The translations under genes and the position numbers were made by a program. The notes beneath the pieces were generated by a model. The model was not told the DNA's origin and ran no database searches. It saw only the letters and a program-made list of their open reading frames with translations. A stretch of DNA of 32,588 nt from assembly GCA_011522725.1 (NCBI GenBank), contig WTIL01000057.1:1-32588 (forward strand). Reading direction: 5' to 3'. Positions 5,361 to 32,346 of the stretch are shown in pieces (position 1 is the stretch's first letter; each line of letters opens with the position of its first letter). Source of the DNA: Rhodospirillaceae bacterium. Lineage in GTDB: Bacteria; Pseudomonadota; Alphaproteobacteria; Puniceispirillales; Puniceispirillaceae.

Positions 5361-5380
5361 GTGCCACCTCCTGTTGCGGC

Positions 5381-6025: not shown

Positions 6026-7572
6026 GTCAGACTCCCTTCGGTCTCGGGCACCACCCGGTCAAGGAACCGCGCCGAGTCGGCCCGGATCATCTCGACCTTT
6101 TCAGGTGCCATGCGGTCAAGCGACCGGTACATCATTCCCATCCGCGCATTGCCGCCGAGCTTGTCGCGGTTGCGGATCAGGAAATCCCAGTAGAGATAGT
6201 TGAAGGGGCAGGCCCCCTCGCCATTCTTCTTCGCCACCTTGTAGGTGCAGCCGCTGCAATAGTTCGACATGCGGTTGATATAGGCGCCGCCGGCGGCATA
6301 GGGCTTGCTGGCGAGATAGCCGCCATCGGCGAACAGCACCATGCCCGACACATTCGGCAGCTCCACCCACTCATAGGCATCGGCATAGACCACCAGATAC
6401 CATTCATTCACCTCGGCCGGATCGATTCCCGCCAGCAGCGCGAAATTGCCCAGCACCATCAGCCGCTGGATATGGTGGGCATAGGCAAACCGGCGTGTCT
6501 GGTCGATCGACTGTTGCATGCAGTTCATGCCGGTATCGCCGCTCCAGAAGAAATCCGGCAGCGGGCGATGCGCCTCAAGATAGTTCATGGCGGCATAGTC
6601 CGGCATCTTCAGCCAGTAGATACCACGCACAAATTCGCGCCAGCCCAGAATCTGGCGAATGAAACCCTCGACCGCGTTCAGCGGCGCATGGCCGGTGTGC
6701 CAGGCGGCCTCGGCGGCGCGCACCGCCTCGCCGGGAAGCAGCAGCCCGGAATTCAGATAAAAGCCGATATGGCTGTGATACATCCACGGCTCGTCCGCGA
6801 TCATCGCGTCCTGATAGGTGCCGAACAGCGGCAGCCTCTCGGCGATGAATGCGTCGAGGACGGCAAGCGCCTGCTCCCTTGTGACGGCAAAGCCGAAATC
6901 ATCGAGATCGCCGAAATGCTCGGCGCAGCGTTCGCCGACGAGGGCCAGCACCTCAATGGTGGTCTCGTCCGGCGGGAAGGCCGTCGGCTTCGGCACGGTC
7001 AGCGTCAGGTCGGGAGATTCGCGATTGTCGGCGTCATAGTTCCACCTGCCGCCGACCGGCTCGCCGCCTTCCATCAGCACGTCATGATGACGGCGCATCT
7101 CGCGATAGAAGAACTCCATGCGAAGCTGCTTGCGGCCCTCGGCCCAGCTTTCGAACATGCCGGGCGGGCACATGAACCTGTCGTCGTTCCTGATCTCGAC
7201 ATCGATTCCCAGCTCGTCTTCCCAGCCGCGCATCGCCGCAAGGACACGGTGCTCGCCGGGCTCGGTCAGCACAAGCCGTTCTGCGCCGTGCCGTGTCACC
7301 GCGCGCGCCACCTCACCGGAAAAGCTGCCACTGTTGACCTCGTCATCAAGCCGGACATAGTCGACGGTGATGCCTTCCCCGCGAAGTTCGTCGGCAAAGT
7401 GGCGCATCGCCGAGAACAGGAAGGCGACCTTGCGCTTGTGATGGCGGACATAGGTGACTTCCTCGATCACCTCGGCCATCAGCACGACATCCCGTTCCTT
7501 GTCGAGACCGGCCAGCCCGGACAGCGAGCGTGACAGCTGGTCGCCAAGAACGAGCCGGATCGTGCCTGCCAT
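6022..7572 (-). CDS. phrB: Fe-S bacterial cryptochrome/(6-4) photolyase (FeS-BCP family)
   Basis: This 516-residue flavoprotein belongs to the branch of Agrobacterium PhrB and Rhodobacter CryB, which repairs (6-4) photoproducts or acts in light signalling. It has the family's N-terminal lumazine/antenna domain (LVLGDQLS start) and C-terminal FAD domain. All four cysteines that bind the [4Fe-4S] cluster are present: Cys351, Cys439, Cys442 and Cys455, spaced almost exactly as in PhrB. Other matches are HIQRLMVLGNFALLAGIDP and YLASKPYAAGGAYINRMS. Its start overlaps the stop of the class I photolyase by one base (TGATG), and its stop overlaps DUF3833. Repair versus signalling cannot be decided from the sequence. 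Confidence 0.94.
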   Translation of the reverse strand: MAGTIRLVLGDQLSRSLSGLAGLDKERDVVLMAEVIEEVTYVRHHKRKVAFLFSAMRHFADELRGEGITVDYVRLDDEVNSGSFSGEVARAVTRHGAERLVLTEPGEHRVLAAMRGWEDELGIDVEIRNDDRFMCPPGMFESWAEGRKQLRMEFFYREMRRHHDVLMEGGEPVGGRWNYDADNRESPDLTLTVPKPTAFPPDETTIEVLALVGERCAEHFGDLDDFGFAVTREQALAVLDAFIAERLPLFGTYQDAMIADEPWMYHSHIGFYLNSGLLLPGEAVRAAEAAWHTGHAPLNAVEGFIRQILGWREFVRGIYWLKMPDYAAMNYLEAHRPLPDFFWSGDTGMNCMQQSIDQTRRFAYAHHIQRLMVLGNFALLAGIDPAEVNEWYLVVYADAYEWVELPNVSGMVLFADGGYLASKPYAAGGAYINRMSNYCSGCTYKVAKKNGEGACPFNYLYWDFLIRNRDKLGGNARMGMMYRSLDRMAPEKVEMIRADSARFLDRVVPETEGSLT

Positions 7573-8996
7573 CAGACAGCCCCCTCGCGCAGCCTGGCAA
7601 AGGCGGCAAGCGCGTCCTCACGGGACTGTTTCAGATCGACGACCGGCCGCGGATAGGTCTCGCCGAGCCGCACGCCGGCACCGTCCAGAACCGCCTTCGG
7701 CGCGGTCCAGGGGGCGAAGAGATATTTGTCGGGCAGATCGGCAAGTTCGGGGCAGAAGCGGCGTGTATAGGCGCCGTCCTTGTCGAACTTCTCGCCTTGC
7801 GTGACCGGGTTGAAGACGCGGAAATAGGGGGCGGCATCGGCGCCGCATCCGGCGATCCACTGCCATGAGGCGCTGTTGTTTGCGTGATCGGCATCGACAA
7901 GGCAGTCCCAGAACCATGCCTCGCCATGGTGCCAGTGAAGCCGCAAATTCTTCACCAGGAAGGACCCGGTCACCATGCGCATGCGGTTGTGCATATAGCC
8001 TGTCTGCCAGAGCTCGCGCATCGCCGCATCGACAAAGGGAACGCCTGTCATGCCGCGCTGCCATGCCCGCAGCAGGCCGTCATCCTCGCGCCAGTCGAAC
8101 CCGTCGAACTTGGTCTGCAGATTGCGCCGCTTCAGTTCGGGATTGAAATAGAGAAGCGAGTGCGAGAATTCGCGCCAACCGAGTTCCGAGCAGAAATTGT
8201 CGACATCGTCCGCCGGCAGGTCGCCGCGGTCGCGCGCCGCGTGCCAGACCCGATTCACCGAGATCTCGCCCCAGTGAAGATGCGGCGACAGGCGCGAGAC
8301 ATGGGGCTTTGCCGGAAGGTTGCGGCCCTCCTTGTAGCCGGCGATGCCGCCATCCAGAAAGGCCTGAAGACGCGCCTCGGCACCGGCCTCGCCGATCTGC
8401 CAGTGCGGGGCCAGCATCTCGCCCCAGTCCTCGGCAGGCAGCAGGTCAAGATCATCGACTGATGTCGCCGAGGGCGGGGTCGCCAGACCGATCTGCGGTG
8501 CCGGCAACGGCGCGCGCGGCGGCGCGGCGGCAAGGCAGCCTCTCCGGTAGAAGGGCGTGAAGACCTTGTAGGGCGTGCCGTCGCCCTTCTGAACTTCCCA
8601 CGGCTCCCACAACAGCGCCCCATTATGGCTGACAGCCTCGGTCCCGGCAGCCGTCAGCGCGGTTTTCAACTTGCTGTCGCGCTCGATGCGCCAGGCCTCG
8701 TAGCTGCGGTTCCAGTGGACGGCGCTGGCGCCCGTCTCGGCAACAAGGCGGGGGATCAGTTCCAGCGCGTCGCCCGCCATGATGTGCAGCACGCCGCCAA
8801 GCGAGGCCTTCAGCGCGGCCAGGGAATGATGAAGCCACCAGCGGTTGGCGGCGCCGATGCGGTCCTCGCCTGCGGCGCCGTCATCAAGGATGAAGACGGG
8901 CAGCACCTCGCCGCGCGCGGCAGCGGCGCAGAGCGCCGGATTGTCGGCAAGCCGCAGATCCTGGCGGAACCAGCAGATGGAGAGAGGTCGCGTCAT
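7572..8996 (-). CDS. phrA: Deoxyribodipyrimidine photolyase, CPD class I/III type
   Basis: This 474-residue photolyase uses blue light and FAD to split cyclobutane pyrimidine dimers. The N-terminal antenna domain starts with ICWFRQDLRLADNPAL. The FAD domain holds LGWREFSHSLLYFNP, GMTGVPFVDAAMRELWQTGYMHNRMRM and DADHANNSASWQWIAGCGAD, the latter covering the conserved flavin-contacting Asp/Asn region. Length and motifs are complete. The ribosome site is GGAAGGA 6 bases before the ATG. It is the first gene of the five-gene minus-strand operon, with a perfect 10-bp hairpin just upstream. The symbol follows common alphaproteobacterial use for the CPD enzyme and is tentative; phrB is used for it in enterics. 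Confidence 0.94.
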   Translation of the reverse strand: MTRPLSICWFRQDLRLADNPALCAAAARGEVLPVFILDDGAAGEDRIGAANRWWLHHSLAALKASLGGVLHIMAGDALELIPRLVAETGASAVHWNRSYEAWRIERDSKLKTALTAAGTEAVSHNGALLWEPWEVQKGDGTPYKVFTPFYRRGCLAAAPPRAPLPAPQIGLATPPSATSVDDLDLLPAEDWGEMLAPHWQIGEAGAEARLQAFLDGGIAGYKEGRNLPAKPHVSRLSPHLHWGEISVNRVWHAARDRGDLPADDVDNFCSELGWREFSHSLLYFNPELKRRNLQTKFDGFDWREDDGLLRAWQRGMTGVPFVDAAMRELWQTGYMHNRMRMVTGSFLVKNLRLHWHHGEAWFWDCLVDADHANNSASWQWIAGCGADAAPYFRVFNPVTQGEKFDKDGAYTRRFCPELADLPDKYLFAPWTAPKAVLDGAGVRLGETYPRPVVDLKQSREDALAAFARLREGAV

Positions 8997-9008
8997 AACA
9001 GTCCTTCC

Positions 9009-9032
9009 CGCCGCGATGCGATCATCGCGGCG
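9009..9032 (-). promoter_or_regulatory. Perfect hairpin in the photolyase leader
   Basis: CGCCGCGATG and CATCGCGGCG form perfect 10-bp arms around a 4-base loop. On the transcript the hairpin ends about one base before the GGAAGGA ribosome site of the photolyase gene. It has no T-run, so it is not a standard terminator. It could be an operator dyad at DNA level or an RNA structure limiting ribosome access. The structure is seen; the role is inferred. Confidence 0.5.
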
Positions 9033-9165
9033 TACTGGCGCAAACGGCTCCCCCTCCTTTGCGAAAATGGCCTTGTCCGGAGCTCCCGCCGGACCCCTGT
9101 TACATCGCGTTGAACGGCGCTGTTTTCAAGCCCCCGATACGCCCGGTGACGCGATCCGCGCCACC

Positions 9166-9978
9166 CTAGAAAAAGGCGAAGCAGCGGGTCTCGATGCTCT
9201 GGCGCGGCGCGGCGTCGGGCGGCGATGTCGGATCGTCGAAAGCGGTGTGGATCGTAAAGCGGTTGCGCCCGTCGGTGGCCGAATCATAAGTCTTGATCAG
9301 CGCCGCCTCGCCGGCCTCCATCGCCGGGAAATAGTACCACTCATGCGCCGGGTTGAACCGCGCCATCTGGATCTGGCCGACCCGGTCTTTCGCCTGGCGC
9401 GTCACCTCGACGAGATCGCCGTCGGCCAGCGAGGTGCTGTCGCAAAAGGCAAGCGGATGGCTCTCCACGCGGCCGGCGATGGAGCGCCATATGTTGATGA
9501 TGGCGAAACGCCGCGTCATCAGCGCCTCGGCCTCGTCAGGCAGAATTTCGCACAGCCGTTTTTCCGCCGACCACTGGGTGTAGTCGTTATGGATCACGGC
9601 TGACGGCTCACGCATGGTCTGGGCCCGCCGCAACCCGTCGCTCGCGGCGCGGCGGGTGTGATCGAAGATCACAACGCGGCGCGCACCGGTGATCCGGCTG
9701 ACCAGCGCCCTCGCCTCGTCCTCATAGATGGCGGCGATGGCGTCGTCATCGTGGAAATCAGACAGTTTGCTGGCATGCGGGACCAGCATGAAACCTGCCT
9801 TGTCGAGATCGAAGCTGCGGTCCCGCCCGTTGCGAACCTCCATCTCGCGATAATCATAGCTGCCGTCATGTTCGGCCGCCGCGCCGCCGGCCTGCGAGGC
9901 GTGATAGACGGCGCCGCCATCATCTGCCGCTGCCAGATATTGCAGGCTTGCACGAACGCTGTTTGTGGTTTCGGTCAT
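9166..9978 (-). CDS. CmcJ/NvfI-family oxidoreductase
   Basis: This 270-residue protein matches a family that includes fungal and streptomycete biosynthetic enzymes (CmcJ, NvfI endoperoxidase, gibberellin desaturase relatives), several of which are Fe(II)/2-oxoglutarate-type oxygenases. Seen are the HxD pair His130/Asp132 in VIHNDYTQWSAE, SHPLAFCDSTSL, and the C-terminal block HEWYYFPAMEAGEAALIKTYDS (His212) followed by HTAFDDP (His244). His130, Asp132 and His212 are candidate metal ligands. The ATG at 9978 is chosen because GGAAGGG precedes it and the family N-terminus starts there; 39 upstream codons are dropped. It lies 55 bases after the ABC permease stop, so it is the third gene of that operon. 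The substrate is unknown and may be what the transporter imports. Confidence 0.75.
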   Translation of the reverse strand: MTETTNSVRASLQYLAAADDGGAVYHASQAGGAAAEHDGSYDYREMEVRNGRDRSFDLDKAGFMLVPHASKLSDFHDDDAIAAIYEDEARALVSRITGARRVVIFDHTRRAASDGLRRAQTMREPSAVIHNDYTQWSAEKRLCEILPDEAEALMTRRFAIINIWRSIAGRVESHPLAFCDSTSLADGDLVEVTRQAKDRVGQIQMARFNPAHEWYYFPAMEAGEAALIKTYDSATDGRNRFTIHTAFDDPTSPPDAAPRQSIETRCFAFF

Positions 9979-10033
9979 TTCTGTCTGCCCTTCCGGATCG
10001 ATGTTCACCCTGACCACTATCCCGCAGGACGGA

Positions 10034-10789
10034 TCAGCGCTTGTCGGCGGCACCCATCCGCATTTCGAACCAGCGTACAGCCGCCGATACCACAAGGATC
10101 AGGACAAGATATTCGAGCACGAGAACGGTATAGATCTCCAGCGGCCGGTATTCTGTCACAACCAGCTCGTTGGCGCGGCGGGTCAGCTCTTCCATGCCGA
10201 TCACCGACACCAGCGACGACATTTTCAGCATATAGACGAGCTGGTTGCCAAGTGCCGGCAGGATGCGCTTGATCGCCTGCGGCAGGATCACGTACCGCAT
10301 CTTGTCGACATAGCTGAGCGAGATGGAATGCGCCGCCTCGTGCTGGCCCCGGTCGATCGACTGGATGCCGGCACGGAAGATTTCGGCCTGGAAGGCGCTG
10401 TCCGAAATCGCCAGCGCCAGCACCCCGGCCCAGAAGACCGAGATCGAGATATCGGCCACCTGCGGCAGCCCGTAATAGACCCACAGGATCAGCACCAGGA
10501 TTGGCACCGCGCGCACCAGCTCGACATAGACCCGGTTGACCACCCTCGCCGGCCGCTGGCTTGCCAGTCCGGGAAGCGCGACCAGAAGGCCGAGAATGAT
10601 CGAGATCAGGATCGCCGTCACCGACAGGGCGATGGTGTAATACAGCCCGTCGAGGAGGAACATCAGGTTGCGCTGGCCGGCCGGGGTCGACGGGTTGACC
10701 ACATACCAGCCCCAGTTGCCGGAACAGCCGCCAAGGAAAAGCAGCGCCGGAAACAGCGTGGACAGGGATATCAGGCGTCGAAAGCTCAT
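10034..10789 (-). CDS. Polar amino-acid-type ABC transporter permease
   Basis: This 251-residue inner-membrane permease of the HisM/GltK type has about five or six helices. A long N-terminal helix and periplasmic segment precede the core that begins YYTIALSVTAILISI. The cytoplasmic EAA loop is visible as EAAHSISLSYVDKMRYVILPQAI (residues around 150-172), which docks the ATPase. It lies 9 bases after the ATPase gene. Only one permease is encoded, so a homodimer is likely, unlike two-permease glutamate systems. The substrate-binding protein that would complete it is probably the one at 14770 on the other arm of the cluster. A Gly-Gly-Cys near residue 22 looks like a lipobox but sits in a membrane helix of a permease. 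Confidence 0.9.
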   Translation of the reverse strand: MSFRRLISLSTLFPALLFLGGCSGNWGWYVVNPSTPAGQRNLMFLLDGLYYTIALSVTAILISIILGLLVALPGLASQRPARVVNRVYVELVRAVPILVLILWVYYGLPQVADISISVFWAGVLALAISDSAFQAEIFRAGIQSIDRGQHEAAHSISLSYVDKMRYVILPQAIKRILPALGNQLVYMLKMSSLVSVIGMEELTRRANELVVTEYRPLEIYTVLVLEYLVLILVVSAAVRWFEMRMGAADKR

Positions 10790-13568: not shown

Positions 13569-14609
13569 ATGCCCGACATCGAACAGGAATTCATCAGGGA
13601 TTGCTGGTATGTCGCCGGATGGAGCGAGGATTTCACCCACACGCTGACGCCGCTGCGGATCCTTGACGAGCCGATTGTCGTCTTCCGGACCGAGGCAGGT
13701 GTGCCGGCCGCGCTCGAGGATGCCTGCCCGCACCGCAAGCTGCCGCTGTCGAAAGGCCGTCTGACCGGCGAGACGGTCGAATGCGGCTATCACGGGCTGA
13801 CCTTCGACTGCAGCGGCGCCTGTGTCCGCGCGCCGACCCAGGACGGGCCGCCGCCGGCAGTGACCGTGCGGTCATACCCGGTCGAGGACCGCTGGGGCAT
13901 CCTGTGGATCTGGATGGGCGATGCCGACAAGGCCGACCCGGACGAAATCTTCGAGATTCCGAACTATGACAATCCGGCATGGGGGCGCACGCAAGGCGGC
14001 AGCATGGATATCGCCTGCCATTATCTCTATGTCGTCGACAACCTTCTCGACCCGTCGCATGTGGCCTGGGTGCATGTCTCGTCCTTTGCCGGGGCCGGCA
14101 CCGGCAACCTGCCGCTTGATCTTGAAAAGCTGGATGACGGGATCATCGTCTCGCGCTGGGTGATGGACGCGCCGCCCCCGCCCTATTACGAACCGATCCT
14201 GCCTTTCTCCGGCAATTGCGACCGCAAGCAGCATTACGAATGCCGCCTGCCCTCGACCGCGATCAACATGTCGGTCTACACCCGTGCCGGAACCGGCGGC
14301 GACAACGACAACCTGCCGGACGACGCGTTCCTGAACATCTCCTACAATTTCATGACGCCCGTCGATGCCGACAACACGCGGTATTTCTGGTTCCAGCATC
14401 GCAATTCGGACCCTGACAACCAGGAGATATCCAACCGGATGTTCGAAGGGGCGAAGGCCGCCTTTATCGAGGACCGGGACGTTCTGACCGAAGTTCACAA
14501 GGGTATGAAGACAAGCCGGACCCGCCACATCAATCTCGGCATCGATGCCGGTGCGATGCGGTTTCGCAAGATGGTCGAGAGACGCATCAGCGAGGAAAAC
14601 ACGACATGA
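13569..14609 (+). CDS. Rieske-type aromatic ring-hydroxylating or demethylating oxygenase
   Basis: This 346-residue oxygenase component is of the VanA/phthalate-type Rieske group. The 2Fe-2S ligands are in CPHRKLPLSKG and CGYHGLTFD. The mononuclear iron site is in DNLLDPSHVAWVH, where the two His and the bridging Asp are present. The likely third ligand is an acidic residue in the helix around FIEDRDVLTEVHKGM. Such enzymes hydroxylate, O/N-demethylate or oxidise small aromatics, and they need an electron-donating reductase that is not in this window. It starts 4 bases after the NicX-like gene, so the three right-arm genes are probably one transcript. The substrate cannot be read from sequence. 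Confidence 0.92.
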   Translation: MPDIEQEFIRDCWYVAGWSEDFTHTLTPLRILDEPIVVFRTEAGVPAALEDACPHRKLPLSKGRLTGETVECGYHGLTFDCSGACVRAPTQDGPPPAVTVRSYPVEDRWGILWIWMGDADKADPDEIFEIPNYDNPAWGRTQGGSMDIACHYLYVVDNLLDPSHVAWVHVSSFAGAGTGNLPLDLEKLDDGIIVSRWVMDAPPPPYYEPILPFSGNCDRKQHYECRLPSTAINMSVYTRAGTGGDNDNLPDDAFLNISYNFMTPVDADNTRYFWFQHRNSDPDNQEISNRMFEGAKAAFIEDRDVLTEVHKGMKTSRTRHINLGIDAGAMRFRKMVERRISEENTT

Positions 14610-21383: not shown

Positions 21384-22661
21384 ATGGCCGAAACCAGCAT
21401 CTACGAGACCAGCTATGCGCAGCGGCCGCGCTATCCGCGGCCCGACGAGGTTCCGCAGACCGATATCGCCATTATCGGCGGCGGCCTGACCGGCATTTCG
21501 GCGGCGCTGACGCTGGCCGAGGCGGGGCGCCGCGTCACCGTTCTCGAGGCCGGGCGGGTCGGCGCCGGCGGATCCGGCCGCAACGGCGGCCATCTGTGCC
21601 AGGGCTGGTCCAGCGATTTCGCCAAGATCAGCCGGCAGCTGTCGGCCGAGGATGCGGATATCGCCTGGCAGACCGGCATGGAGGCAGTCGATCTCGTCAC
21701 GTCACGAATCGAGGCCTACGGCATCGATTGCGAGGTCCGGTTCGGCTATCTGCATGCGGCGCTTCACGGCCGCCAGATGCGCGATCTCGACGCCGAGCAG
21801 GCGGAATGGGAGGCCCGCGGCTATAATCATTTCACACGGCTTGAAGGGCAGGATGCGATGTCGGCCCATATCGGCAGCACCGCCTATGTCGGGGCGTTGC
21901 ACGATACCGGCTGCGGCCATATCCAGCCGCTGAAATATCTTCACGGGCTCGCCGCCGCCGCATCCGCCGCCGGGGCGGTCATCTGCGAGGACTCACCCGT
22001 GCGCAGCATCCGCCGCGGCAAGACCAAGACGCTTGTCCTTGGTGACGGCACCGAGATCACCGCGCCGACGGTTCTGCTGTGCGGCAACGCCTATCTGGCC
22101 GATGTCGGGCTACCGGAAATGAAGGCAAGGCTGGCGCCGGTCACGTCTTCCGTCCTTGCGACAAGGCCGCTGTCGGAAAATCTGGTGAAACAGCTGCTGC
22201 CCACCGGCGCGGCGGTCGCCGACTGCAACGCGGCGCTGAACTATTACCGTATCGATGCCGACAACAGGATGGTTTTCGGCGGACGGGCCAGCTATTCCAA
22301 TGTCCAGTTCGGCGATGTCGAGGCCGACCTGCGCCGCCGCATGGCAGAAGTGTTCCCGATCCTGGCCGGGACAGAGGCCGAACAGGTCTGGTCGGGGCGG
22401 ATCGGCATCACCGTCAACCGCATCCCCCATTACGGGCGCACCGACGATGATATCTATTTCGTGCAGGGATTTTCCGGCCACGGGGTGGCGCTGTCCGGGC
22501 TGTCCGGCAAGATCATGGCCGAGGCGGTGATCGGCGATTCAAAGCGCTTCGACGTGATGAGCAGCCTTCGCCACATGCCGTTTCCGGGCGGTCCGCTGCG
22601 CACGCCGGCGCTGGCGCTTGGCATGGCCTGGTTCAAGCTGCGCGACAGGCTGAAGCTCTAG
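21384..22661 (+). CDS. puuB: FAD-dependent gamma-glutamylputrescine oxidase-like protein
   Basis: This 425-residue DAO-fold flavoenzyme has the dinucleotide-binding GGGLTG at residues 32-37, the following VTVLEAG, and the flavin-contact GSGRNGGH near residues 63-70. The C-terminal RIGITVNRIPHYGRTDDDIYFVQGFSGHGVALSG is the family signature. PuuB oxidises gamma-glutamylputrescine to the aldehyde with release of ammonia and H2O2. It stands alone on the plus strand, divergent from spuC-puuA and convergent with the agmatinase gene, whose 3' end overlaps its own by four bases. The match to PuuB is by fold, motif and neighbours; a different secondary amine substrate is possible. Confidence 0.85.
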   Translation: MAETSIYETSYAQRPRYPRPDEVPQTDIAIIGGGLTGISAALTLAEAGRRVTVLEAGRVGAGGSGRNGGHLCQGWSSDFAKISRQLSAEDADIAWQTGMEAVDLVTSRIEAYGIDCEVRFGYLHAALHGRQMRDLDAEQAEWEARGYNHFTRLEGQDAMSAHIGSTAYVGALHDTGCGHIQPLKYLHGLAAAASAAGAVICEDSPVRSIRRGKTKTLVLGDGTEITAPTVLLCGNAYLADVGLPEMKARLAPVTSSVLATRPLSENLVKQLLPTGAAVADCNAALNYYRIDADNRMVFGGRASYSNVQFGDVEADLRRRMAEVFPILAGTEAEQVWSGRIGITVNRIPHYGRTDDDIYFVQGFSGHGVALSGLSGKIMAEAVIGDSKRFDVMSSLRHMPFPGGPLRTPALALGMAWFKLRDRLKL

Positions 22662-23650
22662 AGCCTGCCGACCGGACTGACCGGCGCGCCGCGCTTCTTC
22701 GCGATCACAGCAATCCAGTCGAAGGCCATGCTTGCCGCCGCGATGGCGGTGATTTCGGCATGGTCATAGGCCGGCGACACCTCGACAAGATCCATCCCGA
22801 CGAGATTCAGCGGCTCAAGCCCGCGGATGAATTCCAGCCCCTGCCAGCTTGCCAGCCCACCAGCGACAGGCGTGCCGGTGCCCGGCGCAAAGGCCGGGTC
22901 CAGCCCGTCGATATCGAAGGACAGATAGACCGGCGCGTCGCCGGCGCGTTCGCGAACCACATCCATCGCGGCGTCGATACCGTTGCGATGAACCCACGGG
23001 CTGGTCAGGATTTCGAAACCGTGGTCGCTGTCATTATAGGTGCGCAGCCCAACCTGGGTGGAACGCGCCACATCGATGATCCCCTCGGCGGCGGCGCGGG
23101 CGAACATCGTTCCATGGTCGAAACGGCTGCCGTCGTCAGGCCAGGTGTCGCAATGCGCGTCGAACTGGACCAGCGCCACCGGTCCGTGTTTTTTCGCATG
23201 CGCCTTCAGCAGCGGGTAAGCGACCGAATGGTCACCGCCCAGGCTGAGCATCATCGCACCGGAATCAAGAATGCCGTCGGCGTGGGATTCAATCGCGTCA
23301 AACACACCGGTCGGGTGATGCGGGTCGATGAAAGCGTCGCCGTAATCCACAACCGACAAGCTATCGAACGGGTCGAAGCCGAAGGGGAAATGCTTCAGCT
23401 CGGCAAGCTGCACCGATCCGGCCCGGATGGCGCGCGGGCCGAGCCGGCAACCCGGGCGGTAGGTCACGGCGTTGTCATAGGGGATGCCGCTGACGACGAT
23501 GTCGGCGCCGGCAAGGTCCCGGCTGTAGCGGCGGCGGGCAAAGCTCACCGCGCCTCCGTAGGTCATTTCCTGCCAGGTGCCGCGCCCGTCCGCATCGCGG
23601 AATGCCTGGTCGCCGCGCCCGCCCTGTCCGTTCGATCTGTCAAGACTCAT
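22658..23650 (-). CDS. speB: Agmatinase-family ureohydrolase
   Basis: This 330-residue ureohydrolase cleaves guanidino compounds to an amine plus urea. The two-manganese site is complete: His141 in GGDHS, Asp164/His166/Asp168 in DAHCDTW, and Asp246/Asp248 in SFDIDGLDP. The N-terminal block IVVSGIPYDNAVTYRPGCRLGPRAIR is typical of agmatinases and guanidinobutyrases. The ATG at 23650 is chosen for its GGAGG; it overlaps the PotI stop by 11 bases. It is the last gene of the polyamine ABC operon, so the imported molecule, or one partner of it, may be agmatine. Substrate (agmatine, guanidinobutyrate, others) is not settled by sequence. Confidence 0.85.
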   Translation of the reverse strand: MSLDRSNGQGGRGDQAFRDADGRGTWQEMTYGGAVSFARRRYSRDLAGADIVVSGIPYDNAVTYRPGCRLGPRAIRAGSVQLAELKHFPFGFDPFDSLSVVDYGDAFIDPHHPTGVFDAIESHADGILDSGAMMLSLGGDHSVAYPLLKAHAKKHGPVALVQFDAHCDTWPDDGSRFDHGTMFARAAAEGIIDVARSTQVGLRTYNDSDHGFEILTSPWVHRNGIDAAMDVVRERAGDAPVYLSFDIDGLDPAFAPGTGTPVAGGLASWQGLEFIRGLEPLNLVGMDLVEVSPAYDHAEITAIAAASMAFDWIAVIAKKRGAPVSPVGRL

Positions 23651-24485
23651 GGCCTGATCCTCCGGTCGCGGCGGCCGCCTTCCGGCCGGCGCTGTTGCGG
23701 TAAATGATGGCACTGGCGATGACCACGCTTGCCGCCACAAGCAGGATCATGATGGTCGCCAGCGCGTTGATCTCGGGCGTCACGCCGAGACGGACCTTGG
23801 AAAAGACGACGATCGGCAGGGTCGAGCTTCCCGGGCCGCTGACAAAGCTGGCGATGACCAGATCGTCGAAGCTGAGCGTAAAGGCAAGGAGCCATGCCGC
23901 GATCACCGCCGGCGCGATCACCGGCAGGGTGATTGAGAAAAAGATATAGGGCTGCCGCGCACCGAGGTCGGCGGCCGCTTCCTCGATCGACATGTCGAAA
24001 TCCCGAAGCCGCGACTGAACCACCACCGCGGCGAAACACATGCCAAAAGTGGTGTGGGCGATGATGATGGTGTCGATGCCGCGTCCCGCCGGCCAGCCAA
24101 GCAGGCCTTCCATGGCGATGAACAGCAGCAGCAGCGACAGGCCGGTCACCACCTCTGGCATCACCAGCGGCATGCTGGCGAGCGCGCTCAGCAGAAGCCG
24201 GAACCGGAAATTGCCGAGCCGCACGAAAGCCAGCGCGATCAGCACCCCGAAGACGGTGGACAGCGTCGCTGCGTTCACCGCCACCCAGAGCGACTTGCCG
24301 AGCGCCTCGAGCACGGCGTCATTCTCGAGAAGCTCGCCATACCATTTGGTCGAGAAACCGGCCCAGACCGATACAAGGCGGCTGCTGTTGAAGCTGTAGA
24401 TCACCATCACCGTGACCGGCACATAGAGAATGCCGAAGCCGATGATGCCGAGCCACAATGCCGGCCATGAGATGCCGCGGGTCAT
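23640..24485 (-). CDS. potI: Putrescine/spermidine-type ABC transporter permease (PotI/PotC-like)
   Basis: This 281-residue inner-membrane permease has six predicted helices. FNSSRLVSVWAGFSTKWYGELL is a characteristic N-terminal loop of PotC/PotI. The cytoplasmic EAA loop is EEAAADLGARQPYIFFSITLPVIAPA, and LSFDDLVIASFVSGPG is the conserved core of polyamine permeases. Its start overlaps the PotH stop as ATGA, so coupling is likely. It forms the heterodimer with PotH. The agmatinase gene overlaps its 3' end. Confidence 0.93.
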   Translation of the reverse strand: MTRGISWPALWLGIIGFGILYVPVTVMVIYSFNSSRLVSVWAGFSTKWYGELLENDAVLEALGKSLWVAVNAATLSTVFGVLIALAFVRLGNFRFRLLLSALASMPLVMPEVVTGLSLLLLFIAMEGLLGWPAGRGIDTIIIAHTTFGMCFAAVVVQSRLRDFDMSIEEAAADLGARQPYIFFSITLPVIAPAVIAAWLLAFTLSFDDLVIASFVSGPGSSTLPIVVFSKVRLGVTPEINALATIMILLVAASVVIASAIIYRNSAGRKAAAATGGSGHES

Positions 24486-25420
24486 GCCGCGCCTCCCCGA
24501 CCGGCGTCCTCGGCACGGTCGAGCGCCGTCTCGCGGCCGTCCTGGTAACGGGCATAGATTATCGGCAGCGCCAGAATGGCCAGCAGCAGCATGGCGATGG
24601 CCGAGGCCACCGGCCAGTCACGGTTGCGGAAGAATTCGGTCCAAAGGACCTTGCCGATCATCACCTGTTCCGGCCCGCCGAGAAGCGCCGGAATGACGAA
24701 TTCGCCGACCGCCGGAATGAACACGAGAAGGCTGCCGGCGATGATCCCCGGGACAGTCAGCGGCAGGACGATGGTCCGGAACACCTCGACCCGCGAGGCG
24801 CCGAGATCGGCCGCCGCGTCGAGGAGGTCGTCATCAAGCCGGATCATCACCGCATAGAGCGGCAGGATCATCAGCGGCAGATAGGTCAGCAGCATGCCCA
24901 TATAGATGGAGAAATCGGTCTGCATCATGCGAATGGGGGCTTCGATCAGGCCGAGCTGCAACAGCATGCTGTTGATGAAGCCGTTGGTGTTCAGCAGCCC
25001 GATCAGCGCATAGATCCGCAGCAGGCTGGAGGTCCAGAACGGCAGCATCACCAGCACCAAAAGGATCGCCCGGTGGCTGGGGCTGGAACGCGCGATCCAC
25101 CAGGCCATCGGATAGGCGAAGAGGAGGCAGATCAGCGTCGAGAAAAAGGCGAGCCGCACGCTGTTGCCGGCAGGCCGCAGGTAATCCTGCGAATATTCGA
25201 CCAGAAGCCCGTAATTCTCGAGATTGAAATTGGTGAAGAACCCGTCCTCGCCAAACCCCCAGAGCGGGGCAAAGGGCGGGATGCCGCGCCGCGGCTCGGT
25301 AAAGGATGTCTGCGCCACCTCGACGAGCGGCAGGGCAAAGAAGACGACAAGCCACAGCAGCGGCAGCCACACCACGAGCCGGCGGCCATGGCGTGTCAGG
25401 AAATGCCGGACCGCCGCCAT
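24482..25420 (-). CDS. potH: Putrescine/spermidine-type ABC transporter permease (PotH/PotB-like)
   Basis: This 312-residue permease has six predicted helices and very strong similarity to E. coli PotH: LPFWTSSLLRIYALIGLL, the EAA-type loop DAAADLGASRVEVFRTIVLPLT, and FIPAVGEFVIPALLGG followed by the NRDWPVASAIA block. The periplasmic N-terminal part (about residues 40-75) is short and acidic. It lies 4 bases after the ATPase gene and overlaps potI. With PotI it forms the membrane pore for putrescine-like amines. Confidence 0.94.
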   Translation of the reverse strand: MAAVRHFLTRHGRRLVVWLPLLWLVVFFALPLVEVAQTSFTEPRRGIPPFAPLWGFGEDGFFTNFNLENYGLLVEYSQDYLRPAGNSVRLAFFSTLICLLFAYPMAWWIARSSPSHRAILLVLVMLPFWTSSLLRIYALIGLLNTNGFINSMLLQLGLIEAPIRMMQTDFSIYMGMLLTYLPLMILPLYAVMIRLDDDLLDAAADLGASRVEVFRTIVLPLTVPGIIAGSLLVFIPAVGEFVIPALLGGPEQVMIGKVLWTEFFRNRDWPVASAIAMLLLAILALPIIYARYQDGRETALDRAEDAGRGGAA

Positions 25421-25424
25421 GCCG

Positions 25425-26504
25425 TCAGTCCCGAAGCAGCACGACGTCGGCCGGATCGAAGGCGGCGTAACCCGTCTCTTCCCATTCCAGCGCCGGCTCG
25501 CCGCGCCGCATGTTCGGCTGCGTCAGCTTCAGCAGCACACCACCCGGGCCGGCCACGCGGTAGTTCGAGGCGACACCGGTGAAGGCCATGTCCTCGACCA
25601 TCACTTTCACCTCGTTCACGCCGCCGCCGGATTCCCGCGAAAGGCTGATCTTTTCCGGCCGGATTGCCATGCGCACGTCATCGCCCGCGGCAAACCCGCC
25701 GGGATCGACAGCGGTGACCGGGATGGGGCCGTCAATCTGCAGCATGCCGCCCTTGGCGGATTTTACCTTGCCCTCAAGGAAGCTGACCGTGCCCAGGAAG
25801 TCGGCGATGAAACTGTTTTTCGGGCGGTCATACAGGGTGCGGGGTGAATCCACCTGCACCAGCTTGCCGGCATCCATGACGCCGATCCGGCTTGCCAGCG
25901 TCATCGCCTCTTCCTGGTCGTGGGTCACGACGATGAATGTCGTTTCAAGCCGCTCCTGAATGTCGACAAGCTCGAACTGCGTGTCCTCGCGGAGTTTCTT
26001 GTCGAGCGCGGCAAGCGGCTCGTCGAGAAGAAGCAGCTTCGGCCGGCGCGCGAGGGCGCGGGCAAGGGCCACCCGCTGGCGCTGGCCGCCCGACAGCTGG
26101 TGCGGCTTGCGGCCGCCCATGCCGGACAGCCTGACAAGCCGCAGCAGTTCGGTCACCCGGCTCTCGATCTCGGCGCGCGGCAAACCGGCGCGCTTCAGGC
26201 CGTAGGCGATGTTGCTGTCGACCGTCATATGCGGGAACAGCGCGTAATTCTGGAACATGATGTTGACCGGACGCGTCGCCGGCGGCACACGCGACATGTC
26301 GATGCCGTCGATTTCGATGCTGCCTGAATCGACGCTCTCGAACCCGGCCAGCATGCGAAGAAGCGTGGTCTTGCCGCATCCTGACGCGCCGAGAAGGCAG
26401 AACAGCTCGCCCTTGTCGATGTCGAGCGAAAGATCGTCAACCGCCACCACATCGCCGAACCGGCGGGTGACGTTGCTGATCCTGATGAATGGTGATCCGG
26501 TCAA
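25425..26504 (-). CDS. potG: Putrescine/spermidine-type ABC transporter ATPase (PotG/PotA-like)
   Basis: This 359-residue ATPase has Walker A GASGCGKTT (residues 39-47), Q-loop MFQNYALFPHMTV, signature LSGGQRQR, Walker B LLLLDEP and the switch His in VVTHDQEEAM. A C-terminal TOBE domain follows (about residues 275-355, with VRMAIRPEKISL). The TOBE domain is typical of PotA/PotG and other CUT1/MOI importers and may sense substrate. It follows the binding-protein gene by 117 bases that contain a strong hairpin, and is 4 bases before potH. Confidence 0.94.
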   Translation of the reverse strand: MTGSPFIRISNVTRRFGDVVAVDDLSLDIDKGELFCLLGASGCGKTTLLRMLAGFESVDSGSIEIDGIDMSRVPPATRPVNIMFQNYALFPHMTVDSNIAYGLKRAGLPRAEIESRVTELLRLVRLSGMGGRKPHQLSGGQRQRVALARALARRPKLLLLDEPLAALDKKLREDTQFELVDIQERLETTFIVVTHDQEEAMTLASRIGVMDAGKLVQVDSPRTLYDRPKNSFIADFLGTVSFLEGKVKSAKGGMLQIDGPIPVTAVDPGGFAAGDDVRMAIRPEKISLSRESGGGVNEVKVMVEDMAFTGVASNYRVAGPGGVLLKLTQPNMRRGEPALEWEETGYAAFDPADVVLLRD

Positions 26505-26621: not shown

Positions 26622-27719
26622 TCAGCCGCCGGCGCTGAAGCGCGACCAGACGCGGGTGACAGCGCGGTCCAGACGGGCGTCATAGACCGGCACCACGAAC
26701 AGGTTCTTCTGCGCTTCGGCTGTCGGATAGATGCCCGGATGCTCGAGAATTTCCGGATCGATATCCGACTTCGCGCCCTCGCTGCCGCTGGCGTACCAGA
26801 CATAGTTCACATTCGACGCTGCCACGTCGGGACGAAGCATGTAGTCGATGAACTTGTAGGCATTGTCCAGATTCTTGGCATCGGCCGGGATGGCGAAATG
26901 GTCGAACCAGAGGTTGGTGCCCTCTTTCGGGATGTAATATTCGATGGTGTGGCCGTTCTCGGCTTCCTCGGCGCGGTAGGCGGCCTGGAATGCATCACCC
27001 GACCACATGATGGCAGCGCAGATGTCACCATTCGCGATGTCATTGATCGACTGGCTGGAATGGATGTAGCGCAGATGCGGACGGACCGCGTTCAGGATCT
27101 CGCCGGCCTTCTCGAAATCACCGGCCTCGGTGCTGGTGCCGTCGCCGCCCATATAGGCGATCACGTTCGGCAGCACGTCTGTCGGCGCATCAAGGATCAC
27201 GACGCCGCAATCCTCGAGCTTCGAGGCGTATTTCGGGTCAAGCACCAGGGCCCAGCTGTCCGTCGGGGCGTCAGCGCCGAGCCGCTCTTCGATCATCGCC
27301 ACATTATAGGCCACACCGGTGGTGCCCCACATATAGACCGCACCGGCATTGCCGACACCGATCTGGTCGTTGGCGAAGTTCTGCACCTGCATGTCCTGCT
27401 GGCTGTAATTGCCGAGCTTTGCCAGGTCGAGATCCTGATAGGCGCCCGCCTCGCGGCCGCGCGCCAGAAAATCGCCCGTCGGCACGACGACGTCATAGCC
27501 CGAAGAGCCGGCCAGCATCTTGGCCTCGAGAACCTCGTTCGAGTCGTACATGTCATAGGTGACCTTGATGCCGGTCTCCGCCTCGAAATTGGCGATGGTG
27601 TCCTCGGCGATATAGTCCGACCAGTTATAGACATTCAGCTCGTTCGCAACCGCGGAGCCTGCCGTCAGTCCCAGCGCCGCGGCAGCGGCGATGATCGATG
27701 TCTTGCGGATATGTGTCAT
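26622..27719 (-). CDS. potF: Periplasmic putrescine-binding protein (PotF/PotD-like)
   Basis: This 365-residue binding protein has a signal peptide (cleavage near Ala-Val-Ala25). The mature start ELNVYNWSDYIAEDTIANFE, followed by DSNEVLEAKMLAGSSGYDVVVP, follows PotF closely. YMWGTTGVAYNV and AIMWSGDAF are further family matches. PotF-type proteins bind putrescine; PotD binds spermidine; agmatine can also fit related pockets. GGGAGGG lies 8 bases before the ATG, and a good promoter lies about 90 bases upstream. The gene is the first of the potFGHI-speB transcript. Confidence 0.94.
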   Translation of the reverse strand: MTHIRKTSIIAAAAALGLTAGSAVANELNVYNWSDYIAEDTIANFEAETGIKVTYDMYDSNEVLEAKMLAGSSGYDVVVPTGDFLARGREAGAYQDLDLAKLGNYSQQDMQVQNFANDQIGVGNAGAVYMWGTTGVAYNVAMIEERLGADAPTDSWALVLDPKYASKLEDCGVVILDAPTDVLPNVIAYMGGDGTSTEAGDFEKAGEILNAVRPHLRYIHSSQSINDIANGDICAAIMWSGDAFQAAYRAEEAENGHTIEYYIPKEGTNLWFDHFAIPADAKNLDNAYKFIDYMLRPDVAASNVNYVWYASGSEGAKSDIDPEILEHPGIYPTAEAQKNLFVVPVYDARLDRAVTRVWSRFSAGG

Positions 27720-27867: not shown

Positions 27868-29193
27868 CTACCCGTCCAGACGACGCTCCAGCCAGTCGCG
27901 GAAACCGTAATATTTGCCCACCATCGGCAGGAACCACGGCGTCTTGCGAAAACCCGGGAACGCATCCAGCCTGCGGCCGGAAAAGGCGCTTGGCCGGTTC
28001 AGGCTGCCGGCCGCCATCAGACCGGCGCGGTGGCCAAGCCAGCTCATCATCACCACGCCGCTTCCATGGCAGCCAAGCGCGTGGAACACGCCGGGAAGCG
28101 TCTCCGGCCGGCTCTCGCCGACATGGGGAACGCCGTCGCGAAGATAGGCGACATTGCCCCACCAGCCATGCGACAGCTTCACCCCGTCAAGCTGCGGAAA
28201 CACCCGCAGCAGGCGCGATCGCAGGAACGCCGCCCCGGCCGCCGGGTCATGTTTGAGATAACGCGCCCGGCCGCCGAACAGCACCCGCTTGCGGTCCGGC
28301 GATGGCCGGAAATAGTAGAGAAGCCGCTTGGTGTCGGCGATCATCCGGTGCGTCGGGAACAGCTCGGTCACACATTCGGCGCCAAGCTCCTCGGTCGCGA
28401 TCTGGTAGGACGGCACCGGCACCACACGGCGCTGGTGCCAGGGGCTGAGGTCGCCGGAATAGCCGTTGGTGGCGATGATGACCGCCCCGGCGCGGATGGC
28501 ATGCTCGCTTGTCTCGACCTCGAGGCCGGTTCCCGACCGCGTGATCGCACCGGCCCGGATGCCGCCGAACAGGCTGACGCCGGCCGCCTCGGCAACCGAA
28601 AGAACGCCGTGATGGAGCTTTGCCGGGTGCACGGCGCCGCTGCGGTCGAGCAGCATGCCGCCATGATAGAAATCCGAGGCGAGATGGTCATGCGTCCGAT
28701 CGGCAGGCACCATGCTGGCACCTGAATCCGCAATATCGTTCAGACGCGCCACCTCCTCCGCCTGTTTCAGCCAGGCGGCACGGGTATGGGCCCCGACAAA
28801 GCGGCCGCAGCGCTGATACATGGCGTCGATCTTCTCGTCACGGATGAACCCTTCGAACCAGCCGTATGATTCGGCGGCTTCGGCAAGCATCTCGTCGGCG
28901 GTGGCGGGATCGAGGCTGGCATGTTTGCCAACATTCACCCCGCCGGACACCATGCCGCCATTGCGGGTCGAGGCGCCAAGGCCGAGCGGCCCGGCCTCGA
29001 GAACGACAACCTCGCTTCCAGCCCGTGAAAGGGTGATGGCGGCGTGAAGGCCCGCATAGCCCGAACCCACAACAACCACGTCGGCGCGCTCCGGCAGGGC
29101 CTCGGCCGGAAGCCCGGCACCGGCGTCGCGGGGCACCGCATCCCACCAGTAGGGATCGGTCCTGAAGCCTTCCGCGAAAATACTGTCAGACAT
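27868..29193 (-). CDS. FAD-dependent amine oxidase (DAO/OrdL-like)
   Basis: This 441-residue flavoenzyme has GSGYAG at residues 43-48, VVVLEAG, and the flavin-contact STRNGG near residues 75-80. The C-terminal VFHALGCHGSGVVMMSWLGHRAG completes the DAO fold. It is related to the PuuB-like gene at 21384 but clearly distinct. It lacks a C-terminal GcvT folate-binding domain, so it is not a dimethylglycine/sarcosine dehydrogenase fusion. The chosen ATG is two bases after the folD stop; an ATG 12 bases earlier is possible. It is co-transcribed with folD. Likely substrates are secondary or methylated amines or a gamma-glutamyl-amine. Confidence 0.85.
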   Translation of the reverse strand: MSDSIFAEGFRTDPYWWDAVPRDAGAGLPAEALPERADVVVVGSGYAGLHAAITLSRAGSEVVVLEAGPLGLGASTRNGGMVSGGVNVGKHASLDPATADEMLAEAAESYGWFEGFIRDEKIDAMYQRCGRFVGAHTRAAWLKQAEEVARLNDIADSGASMVPADRTHDHLASDFYHGGMLLDRSGAVHPAKLHHGVLSVAEAAGVSLFGGIRAGAITRSGTGLEVETSEHAIRAGAVIIATNGYSGDLSPWHQRRVVPVPSYQIATEELGAECVTELFPTHRMIADTKRLLYYFRPSPDRKRVLFGGRARYLKHDPAAGAAFLRSRLLRVFPQLDGVKLSHGWWGNVAYLRDGVPHVGESRPETLPGVFHALGCHGSGVVMMSWLGHRAGLMAAGSLNRPSAFSGRRLDAFPGFRKTPWFLPMVGKYYGFRDWLERRLDG

Positions 29194-29195
29194 CC

Positions 29196-30077
29196 CTACA
29201 CCCATCCCAGTTCGATCTGTTTCTCGAAGGCAATGGCCGCGTTGCGCATCAGCATTGCCACCGTGACCGGGCCGACCCCGCCCGGTACGGGCGTCGTCCA
29301 GCTGGCGATATCGGCGACGGCGCCGGTATCGGCATCGCCGACAATGCGGCTGCTGCCGTCCGCATCCGTCACCTGGTTGATGCCGATGTCGATGACGGCG
29401 GCGCCGGGCTTGACCATGTCTGCGGTCAGCAGGCCCGGCACCCCGACGGCGACAAGAACGACGTCGGCACGCCGTGTGTGCGCGGCGACAGAACGTGTCA
29501 TATGGTGGCAGACGGTGACGGTCGCGCCCTCGGCCATCAGCATGAAGGCAGCCGGCTTTCCGACAATTTCGGAATGGCCGACGACGACGACCTCCATCCC
29601 CTCGATCTTCATGCCGGTGGCCCTGATCATCTCGACCGAGGCAGCGGCCGTACAGGGCGCCAGCGCCATCTGGTTGTAGACAATGTTGCCGATCGAGGCC
29701 GGGTTCATGCCCTCGACATCCTTCAGCGGGTGGATCGCCGACTGCAGCGAGCGCACATTGATATGATCCGGAACTGGCCGCTGCAGAATGACCCCCAGCA
29801 CGTCCGGATCATCATTCATCGCGACGAGACGTGCCTTGCATTCATCCTGCGTCAGGTCGGCCGGCCAGTGCTGCTCGTCGAACGGCAGGCCGACGGCGGC
29901 GGCGGCACGCGCCTGTCCGCGAATATAGACGGCGATCTCCTCGACCTCGCCGATCCCGACCGAGACGAGGCGCCCGACCTTGCGGCGGGTCGCAAGCCGC
30001 GCGATATCAGCCGCCACCTCGTCCAGAATGCGCTTGCGGATATCGGCGCCATACAGCAACCGCGGATCACGATTCAT
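29196..30077 (-). CDS. folD: FolD-like methylene-THF dehydrogenase, altered cyclohydrolase site
   Basis: This 293-residue protein has the FolD fold. The NAD(P) domain reads VVVGHSEIVGKP and the C-terminal signature TTPVPGGVGPVT is intact. In the catalytic domain, the Tyr-x-x-x-Lys pair is Tyr51 and Gln55 (YIRGQ), so the key lysine is missing. Gln99 in LQRPVP is kept. The folate-contacting Asp of KDVDG is Glu122 (KDVEG). The next motif is PCTA instead of PCTP. Work on the human and E. coli enzymes shows the lysine is needed for cyclohydrolase activity, so a dehydrogenase-only or specialised enzyme is likely. A standard FolD elsewhere in the genome would be expected. It is first in a transcript with the amine oxidase, and GGGAGGG precedes the ATG. 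Confidence 0.85.
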   Translation of the reverse strand: MNRDPRLLYGADIRKRILDEVAADIARLATRRKVGRLVSVGIGEVEEIAVYIRGQARAAAAVGLPFDEQHWPADLTQDECKARLVAMNDDPDVLGVILQRPVPDHINVRSLQSAIHPLKDVEGMNPASIGNIVYNQMALAPCTAAASVEMIRATGMKIEGMEVVVVGHSEIVGKPAAFMLMAEGATVTVCHHMTRSVAAHTRRADVVLVAVGVPGLLTADMVKPGAAVIDIGINQVTDADGSSRIVGDADTGAVADIASWTTPVPGGVGPVTVAMLMRNAAIAFEKQIELGWV

Positions 30078-30333: not shown

Positions 30334-32346
30334 ATGCTTACCACAGCCGTCCTTCCGATCAGCCTCGGCATTGCAGGCCTGATCGCGGCCTTCCTTGTCT
30401 ATGCACGAATTCTGCAGACCCCCGCCGGCGAAGGCCGGGTCAAGGAGATCGCCGACGAGATCCATCTCGGCGCGATGGTCTTCATGGCCAGCGAGTACAA
30501 GCGTCTCGCGGTATTCTGCATCATCTGTATTGTCGCCCTGTATGCGAGCCTCGGTTCCGATACGGCACTTGCCTTTACGCTCGGCGCGCTCTGCTCGGGC
30601 ACGGCCGGCTATATCGGCATGTACACCGCCACCAAGGCGAATGTCCGTACCGCCGTTGCCGCCAACAGCAAGGGCGCTGCCGAAGCGCTGAACGTCGCCT
30701 TCTTCGGCGGCTCGATCATGGGCCTGACCGTCGCGTCGATGGGCCTGTTCGGCATCGGCATCCTGTACCACTTCATGGGTGGCACCGCGCACGGCATCGA
30801 GGCCATCGAGGGCTTCGCCATGGGCGGCTCCTCGGTTGCCCTGTTCAGCCGCGTCGGTGGCGGCATCTTCACCAAGTCGGCTGACGTCGGCGCCGACCTG
30901 GTCGGCAAGGTCGAGGCCGGCATCCCCGAGGATGACCCGCGCAACCCGGCCGTCATCGCCGACAATGTCGGTGACAATGTCGGCGACGTTGCCGGCATGG
31001 GATCGGACATCTTCGAATCCTATTGCGGTTCGATGATCGCCTCGATCGCCCTTGCCGCGTCGATGTCGATGGCTTCCGTCGAAATGCTTGGCGGCGACCG
31101 CGCCGTGCTTCAGTTCATGCCGCTGGTTCTTGCATCCACCGGCCTGGTCTGTTCGCTTCTTGGCATCCTGTCGGTCCGCATGTTTGCCAACAAGAGCCCT
31201 GATGTGGCGCTTCGCTTCGGCACCATCGGTTCCGCTGTGATCTTCATCGCGGCAGCCTATTTCGTGATCACCAGCATGGGCGCTTCCGCCGGTGTCTGGG
31301 GCGCGGTTCTCGTCGGCGCGATCGGCGGCATCGTCGTCGGACTCGTCACCGAGTACTACACCGGTGGCGCACCTGTCCGTAAGATCGCCAAGGACGGCGA
31401 GACCGGCCCGGCAACCATCATGATCAGCGGCCTTGCCGTTGGCATGCAGTCGGTTGCGGTTCCGGTCCTGACCATCGCCGCGATCATCTTCTTCGCCAAC
31501 ATGTTCGCCGGCCTCTACGGCGTGGGCATGGCGGCTGTCGGCATGCTGGCCACGGTCGGCATCACCATGGCAATCGACGCCTACGGCCCGGTTGCCGACA
31601 ATGCCGGCGGCATTGCCGAAATGGCCGAGATGGGTCCCGAGACCCGCGAGATCACCGACTCGCTCGACGAGGTCGGCAACTCCACCGCAGCCATCGGCAA
31701 GGGCTTTGCCATCAGCGCCGCGGCACTCGCCGCACTGGCCCTGATCAGCGCCTATATCGCCAAGGTCAGCAATGGTGACCCTGACTTCGTTCTCGCGATC
31801 AACGACCCGATGGTTCTCGTCGGCATGTTCATCGGCGGCGTCTTCCCGTTCATCGTCAGCGCGATGACCATGACCGCTGTCGGCGACGCGGCCTTCGACA
31901 TGATCGTCGAGGTTCGCCGCCAGTTCAAAGAGATCCCGGGCCTTCTCGAAGGCAAGGCCAAGCCGGACACCGCACGCTGCGTCGACATCGCGACCCGCGC
32001 CGCGCTGCGCCGGATGATCCTTCCGGGTTCGCTCGCCGTCCTGGCGCCTGTCGTCATCGGTTTCGGCCTCGGGCCGAAGGCGCTCGGCGGCATGCTCGGC
32101 GGCGCGCTGATCTGCTGCGTGATGATGGCACTGATGATGGCGAATGCCGGTGGTGCCTGGGACAACGCCAAGAAGTACGTCGAAAAGGGCAACCTTGGCG
32201 GCAAGGGCTCGGACGTCCACAAGGCGGCCGTTGTCGGCGACACCGTCGGCGACCCGCTGAAAGACACCTCGGGCCCGTCAATGAACATCCTGATCAATGT
32301 GATGGCCATTGTCAGCCTGGTGATTGCCCCGCTGCTGATCGGCTGA
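30334..32346 (+). CDS. hppA: Membrane-bound ion-translocating pyrophosphatase
   Basis: This 670-residue protein has about 16 membrane helices and hydrolyses pyrophosphate to pump H+ or Na+. The substrate motifs are intact: [11 protein letters not shown] (184-194), [12 protein letters not shown] (210-221), and the C-terminal [18 protein letters not shown]. The potassium-type determinant is Ala452 with Gly455 ([10 protein letters not shown]), as in K+-dependent enzymes; the K+-independent enzymes usual in purple bacteria have Lys and Thr there. A gate glutamate is at Glu228 (SDIFESY). AAGGAAG lies 6 bases before the ATG. It is a single-gene unit with its own promoter and terminator. Function as a pump is near certain; the ion is not. 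Confidence 0.97.

Follow-up and report, generated by a model that had tools for sequence, protein, structure and literature searches.

Organization of the locus

The window, by which we mean the whole stretch of DNA analyzed (32,588 nucleotides), is contig 62 of a Rhodospirillaceae genome assembly of 2.26 Mb, which is 86.5% complete. The gene discussed here is found at 29196-30077(-). It is a complete open reading frame which starts with ATG and codes for a FolD-family protein of 293 amino acids, called FolDQ in what follows. Directly downstream lies a gene for a DAO-family FAD oxidoreductase (27868-29205(-)), which overlaps it by 10 bp; if the second ATG is the true start of this gene, there is a gap of 2 bp instead. 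A gene for a PotF-like substrate-binding protein (26622-27719(-)) comes next, followed by PotG/PotH/PotI-like transporter genes and agmatinase (22658-26504(-)). Together with a glutamine-synthetase-like protein and a class III aminotransferase, they form a cluster of the polyamine type. On the other side of the FolDQ gene there is a divergent reading frame (30334-32346(+)), which we recognize as a putative membrane proton-pyrophosphatase. No Rfam match is found in the window. A vanillate O-demethylase-type Rieske oxygenase is encoded at 13569-14609(+), a possible further source of one-carbon units.

FolDQ is a member of the FolD superfamily: It matches both Pfam domains above the cut-off, THF_DHG_CYH (1.7e-23) and THF_DHG_CYH_C (5.9e-57), and has the FolD fold. 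Its best NCBIfam FolD score is 258.5 bits, where the cut-off is 421, and it stays far under every listed FolD cut-off. The AlphaFold2 model, obtained with 22 alignment rows, has a pLDDT of 91.2 and a pTM of 0.88, and Foldseek matches it to FolD, MTHFD1, MTHFD2 and MTHFD2L with TM about 0.9. Judging by this model the fold is ordinary, and the difference sits in the active site.

Altered residues in FolDQ

The residues of interest were read directly from the codons: Tyr51 (TAT), Gln55 (CAG), Gln99 (CAG), Arg100 (CGG), Glu122 (GAG) and Ala144 (GCC), as well as His168, Glu170, His192 and Trp260. Alignment with solved FolDs places Gln55 (29913-29915(-)) at the catalytic lysine of the YxxxK motif and Glu122 (29712-29714(-)) at the pterin-binding aspartate of KDVDG. 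Neither of these two hallmarks of a bifunctional FolD is present in any FolDQ member: All of them have Gln55 and Glu122, the latter retaining a carboxylate. In bacterial FolD, Gln98 sets the lysine in place, and Asp121 binds the pterin (PMC3338484). The canonical glutamine is retained in our protein as Gln99, and the leucine which follows it has become an invariant arginine, Arg100 (codons of both at 29778-29783(-)). This arginine might stand in for the lost lysine. Alanine is also present at positions 144 and 146.

A preliminary description of this DNA, made from the sequence alone, had pointed out the glutamine, the glutamate and a PCTA motif instead of PCTP, all of which are confirmed by the codons and the alignment. 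It had also considered the cofactor motifs to be intact, which is not the case: GRSN has become GHSE and HSRT has become HHMT, so both contacts with the 2'-phosphate of NADP are changed. His168 (29574-29576(-)) replaces the arginine of GRS, and His192 (29502-29504(-)) replaces the serine which binds the phosphate. In human MTHFD1 this serine is Ser197, a key residue for the 2'-phosphate, which is also contacted by Arg201 (PMC9173628). The arginine and serine expected of an NADP-dependent FolD are thus both histidines in FolDQ. From these two substitutions only, we predict that FolDQ probably prefers NAD+. Other parts of the folate and nucleotide sites (Tyr51, Gln99, PCT, PVPGGVGP) are invariant or almost so among the FolDQ proteins.

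A conserved clade without the catalytic lysine

The search for FolDQ covered 61 relatives, together with 385 genomes from the class and 398 from the phylum. It is found in 44 of these genomes, all of them Alphaproteobacteria, spread over many families; bacteria of the sea and of soil are well represented among the carriers. Further carriers are Ponticoccus alexandrii and Paracoccus aminovorans, found among plasmid records, and Aminobacter and Pseudogemmobacter, found in the genome collection. Loci nearly identical to ours belong to SAR116-cluster and other alphaproteobacterial MAGs. Gln55, Arg100, Glu122, Ala146 and His168 are present in all 42 non-redundant relatives (54-98% identical), and His192 in nearly all of them. 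Gln55 is not a sequencing error, nor is the gene a pseudogene, because near-identical copies are found in independent MAGs and the glutamine is invariant in the whole clade.

More than 30 positions in the alignment separate FolDQ from the FolD proteins which have the lysine. In a maximum-likelihood tree of 91 rows, whose root is unsettled and whose few outgroup rows form long branches, a single branch (support 100/99, length 1.47) parts 42 rows with glutamine from 48 rows with lysine, and a single change between both residues is enough to account for their distribution. Proteins with Gln55 do form a clade, a point raised in the preliminary description. As far as sequences can tell, FolDQ is an old, conserved, lysine-less branch of the FolD family: a real new variant within a known group of enzymes. 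Among the open-licence papers searched, we have found none which names a lysine-less bacterial FolD linked to fhs.

Partner enzymes in the same genomes

The preliminary description had suggested looking for a second, canonical folD in the genome. There is exactly one other match, found in contig 104 and 37% identical to FolDQ, with all the canonical motifs: YVRNK, QLPLP, KDVDG, PCTP and GRSN. FolDQ is therefore not the sole folD of its genome. A search with canonical FolD detects a second protein of this type, with the lysine, in 42 of the 44 carriers. In one carrier, a draft genome which is 58% complete (G005), neither this protein nor FchA was seen. The other one, G075, has FolDQ without an ordinary alphaproteobacterial FolD. 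This genome contains a divergent FolD which retains the lysine (YAGAK; L142, 5528-6415(-)), beside a gene for an FchA-type cyclodeaminase/cyclohydrolase (ORF 4809-6128(-)). FchA cannot be the general source of cyclohydrolase: It is present in only one of the 26 carriers searched.

All 44 carriers contain the formate-THF ligase Fhs, although in one of them (G610) it is seen only in pieces, located where contigs end. Fhs together with a separate cyclohydrolase, as expected for a component of tetrahydrofolate (THF)-linked one-carbon (C1) oxidation, is thus found in every carrier save the 58%-complete draft. In the class sample (385 genomes), Fhs is found in 21 of 21 carriers, compared to 171 of 364 non-carriers (47%; Fisher p about 3e-7), and the FAO_M domain, typical of dimethylglycine and sarcosine dehydrogenases (DMGDH/SarDH), in 21 of 21 compared to 118 of 364 (p about 2e-10), both tests ignoring the shared ancestry of the genomes. 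The median number of FAO_M copies is 7 in carriers and 0 in non-carriers. The genome which contains the window has nine FAO_M matches in its 2.26 Mb, many for a small genome.

Gene neighbourhoods

The genes which recur next to folDQ are fhs, canonical folD, tdm, those for formate dehydrogenase, and the sarcosine oxidase genes soxBDAG. The order fhs-folD-folDQ is found in seven loci: Ponticoccus, Pseudogemmobacter, and the SAR116-family genomes G013 (twice), G028, G029 and G033. The five folD/folDQ junctions which we have read all show a 4-bp overlap (ATGA, GTGA or TTGA). In another family, three loci (G082, G555 and G728) have the order fhs-folDQ-folD. In three loci a neighbour of folDQ is tdm, which codes for a trimethylamine-oxide aldolase containing DUF1989 and GCV_T domains, and fdhF is directly upstream of it in two (G176 and G280). 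In G122, a small, low-GC, SAR11-like genome, the neighbours are soxBDAG and thyA. On the other hand, the tandem arrangement is absent from most carriers, and no C1 gene was detected within about 8 kb of folDQ in several distant members.

This gene content is already familiar from Ruegeria pomeroyi, whose C1 module (fhs, folD, tdm and formate dehydrogenase), as described in the part of PMC4744692 devoted to it, corresponds to what is found around folDQ in Rhodobacterales. The scheme given there shows a single FolD activity and makes no mention of a lysine-less second FolD. The same account reports that the release of formate through the Fhs route matters for growth on betaine, and that R. pomeroyi has two copies of fhs. 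A THF-linked route of C1 oxidation has also been proposed for SAR11 (PMC3160333).

Two other arrangements should be mentioned. In G013 the whole panB/fhs/folD/folDQ module appears twice, in contigs C45 and C16 (L041 and L042), and both copies have diverged. In an alphaproteobacterial genus with genomes of 6-7 Mb, FolDQ is encoded beside or near a gene which, from its sequence, we have named a GlcF-like glycolate oxidase iron-sulfur subunit (L085, L086 and L092; in L086 the coordinates are 8140-9120(+) and 9132-10457(-)).

Comparison with known enzymes

FolDQ shares about 34-39% identity with bacterial FolD (E. coli 1B0A, P. aeruginosa 4A5O), as well as both Pfam domains, the fold, and the tyrosine, Gln99, PCT and PVPGGVGP motifs. 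It differs by the changes from Lys to Gln, Asp to Glu, GRSN to GHSE and HSxT to HHMT, and by its presence beside a canonical FolD. Human MTHFD2 and MTHFD2L, relatives of FolD which use NAD and supply the production of formate, also resemble it in structure (TM about 0.9) and in the role predicted for FolDQ, NAD-linked oxidation of methylene-THF towards formate. Nevertheless, MTHFD2 retains Lys88 and is bifunctional, and its arginine is kept while the serine has become Arg233, which acts with Pi/Mg; FolDQ has two histidines at these sites. Arg233 switches the cofactor to NAD, and oxidation in the direction of 10-formyl-THF is believed to be favoured when the reaction is coupled to NAD (PMC9173628).

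A further parallel is yeast MTD1, whose sequence agrees with PDB 1EDZ over the full length of 320 residues. A title cited in PMC5718140 catalogues it as a monofunctional NAD-dependent methylene-THF dehydrogenase. Like FolDQ, MTD1 has no catalytic lysine, has a glutamate in KDVEG, and presents the equivalents of Ala146 and Glu170. Unlike FolDQ, it is eukaryotic, with threonine at the lysine site and tyrosine at Gln99. A common ancestry of both proteins which excludes FolD is not found: The median score of MTD1 is 39.8 bits against FolDQ and 46.8 against canonical FolD. Since MTD1 does not resemble FolDQ more than it resembles canonical FolD, we have rejected a common origin as the simpler explanation, and the loss of lysine together with the change from Asp to Glu appears to have arisen twice, by convergence.

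Proposed function and alternatives

We propose, with a probability of about two thirds, that FolDQ is a methylene-THF dehydrogenase without cyclohydrolase activity, probably NAD+-linked, which feeds THF-linked C1 oxidation. The enzyme would retain the dehydrogenase reaction and would have lost the cyclohydrolase, or nearly so, with the lysine, and its cofactor would probably be NAD+ instead of NADP+. The 5,10-methylene-THF produced by THF-linked demethylation of betaine, dimethylglycine, sarcosine, TMAO or methylamine would be oxidized by FolDQ. The cell's own canonical FolD, or else FchA, would then hydrolyse methenyl-THF to 10-formyl-THF, Fhs would release formate and ATP, and formate dehydrogenase would produce CO2 and NADH. 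We favour this reading because of the likeness to MTD1, the histidines at both NADP-contact sites, and the E. coli K54N mutant of FolD, which keeps about 19% of the dehydrogenase with undetectable cyclohydrolase (PMC5688156). Points against it are that methenyl-THF can also be hydrolysed spontaneously (PMC5688156), that MTHFD2 reaches its NAD preference by another change, and that C1 genes were not detected near folDQ in several distant members. A dehydrogenase-only FolD working on C1 units from N-methyl groups had been suggested in the preliminary description; fhs, FAO_M and the neighbourhoods make it the best explanation, apart from its tie to the amine oxidase next door.

The strongest competitor, which we nevertheless consider unlikely, is a FolDQ which is still bifunctional: Gln55, Arg100 and Glu122 would form a rearranged cyclohydrolase site, and the protein would be an alternative isozyme, NAD+-linked for example, expressed during C1 catabolism. 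In silkworm MTHFD the K53A mutant retains cyclohydrolase, with a kcat/Km of 0.097 compared to 0.13 (PMC6443876), so the loss of lysine alone may not abolish the activity. Gln99 and a carboxylate at position 122 are kept, and the invariant arginine adjoins Gln99. These observations have to be weighed against the behaviour of K54N in E. coli, the same loss of lysine together with the change from Asp to Glu in MTD1, and the fact that a separate FolD with the lysine, or FchA, is nearly always kept, often in one operon.

A more speculative extension, which we regard as distinctly improbable, is that FolDQ and canonical FolD, when produced from overlapping genes, form a heteromer which splits both reactions and passes methenyl-THF towards Fhs. 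NAD-driven oxidation in one direction would thus be kept apart from the NADP-driven biosynthetic FolD, with Arg100, Glu122 and the two histidines as a new folate and cofactor site. About as improbable is a FolDQ whose substrate has changed, to a modified pterin or a different adduct of folate, or which serves canonical FolD as a partner with a regulatory or otherwise non-catalytic role, as it might within a heterodimer. The length of the stem branch, the location of several of the separating positions in the folate pocket, and the equal dosage suggested by overlapping tandem genes are in its favour; the conservation of Tyr51, Gln99, PCT and PVPGGVGP and the absence of the tandem in most carriers argue against it.

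The preliminary description had linked FolDQ to the adjacent amine oxidase, as an enzyme dedicated to the one-carbon unit which the oxidase frees. DAO genes adjoin or overlap folDQ in nine loci, but this idea is very improbable: All nine belong to the family of the window, a SAR116-like sub-branch, DAO is absent at the other FolDQ loci, and the cluster looks polyamine-directed, so the substrate of this oxidase need not bear an N-methyl group. Moreover, the close relatives of the window keep a molybdopterin formate-dehydrogenase-like operon on the far side of the pyrophosphatase-like gene. Because of this, and of the order in G013 (folDQ, fdh, pyrophosphatase gene), the window looks like a rearranged C1 locus.

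Biological significance

Abundant marine bacteria, such as SAR11, SAR116 and the roseobacters, gain energy from betaine, methylamines and DMSP-type compounds by THF-linked oxidation of methyl groups. To our knowledge, current schemes of this process draw a single bifunctional FolD. If our proposal is true, methylene-THF metabolism relies on one enzyme in the catabolic direction and on another in the biosynthetic direction, probably with distinct cofactors, as in the mitochondria and cytosol of eukaryotes. The FolDQ clade, present in many alphaproteobacterial families, would be an exception at least at the level of the class, and it makes this split directly testable in a genetically tractable group. 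Annotation tools which name all these genes as bifunctional FolD would mispredict the reactions of FolDQ.

Another FolD without the lysine is found in the Actinobacteria. Plasmid pYJN5-2 of Paenarthrobacter sp. YJN-5 encodes a very divergent FolD paralogue (L141, 3013-3894(+)) with isoleucine at the catalytic position, between genes for an amino-acid permease and a FAD-binding protein. It is possibly a second, independent lysine-less lineage.
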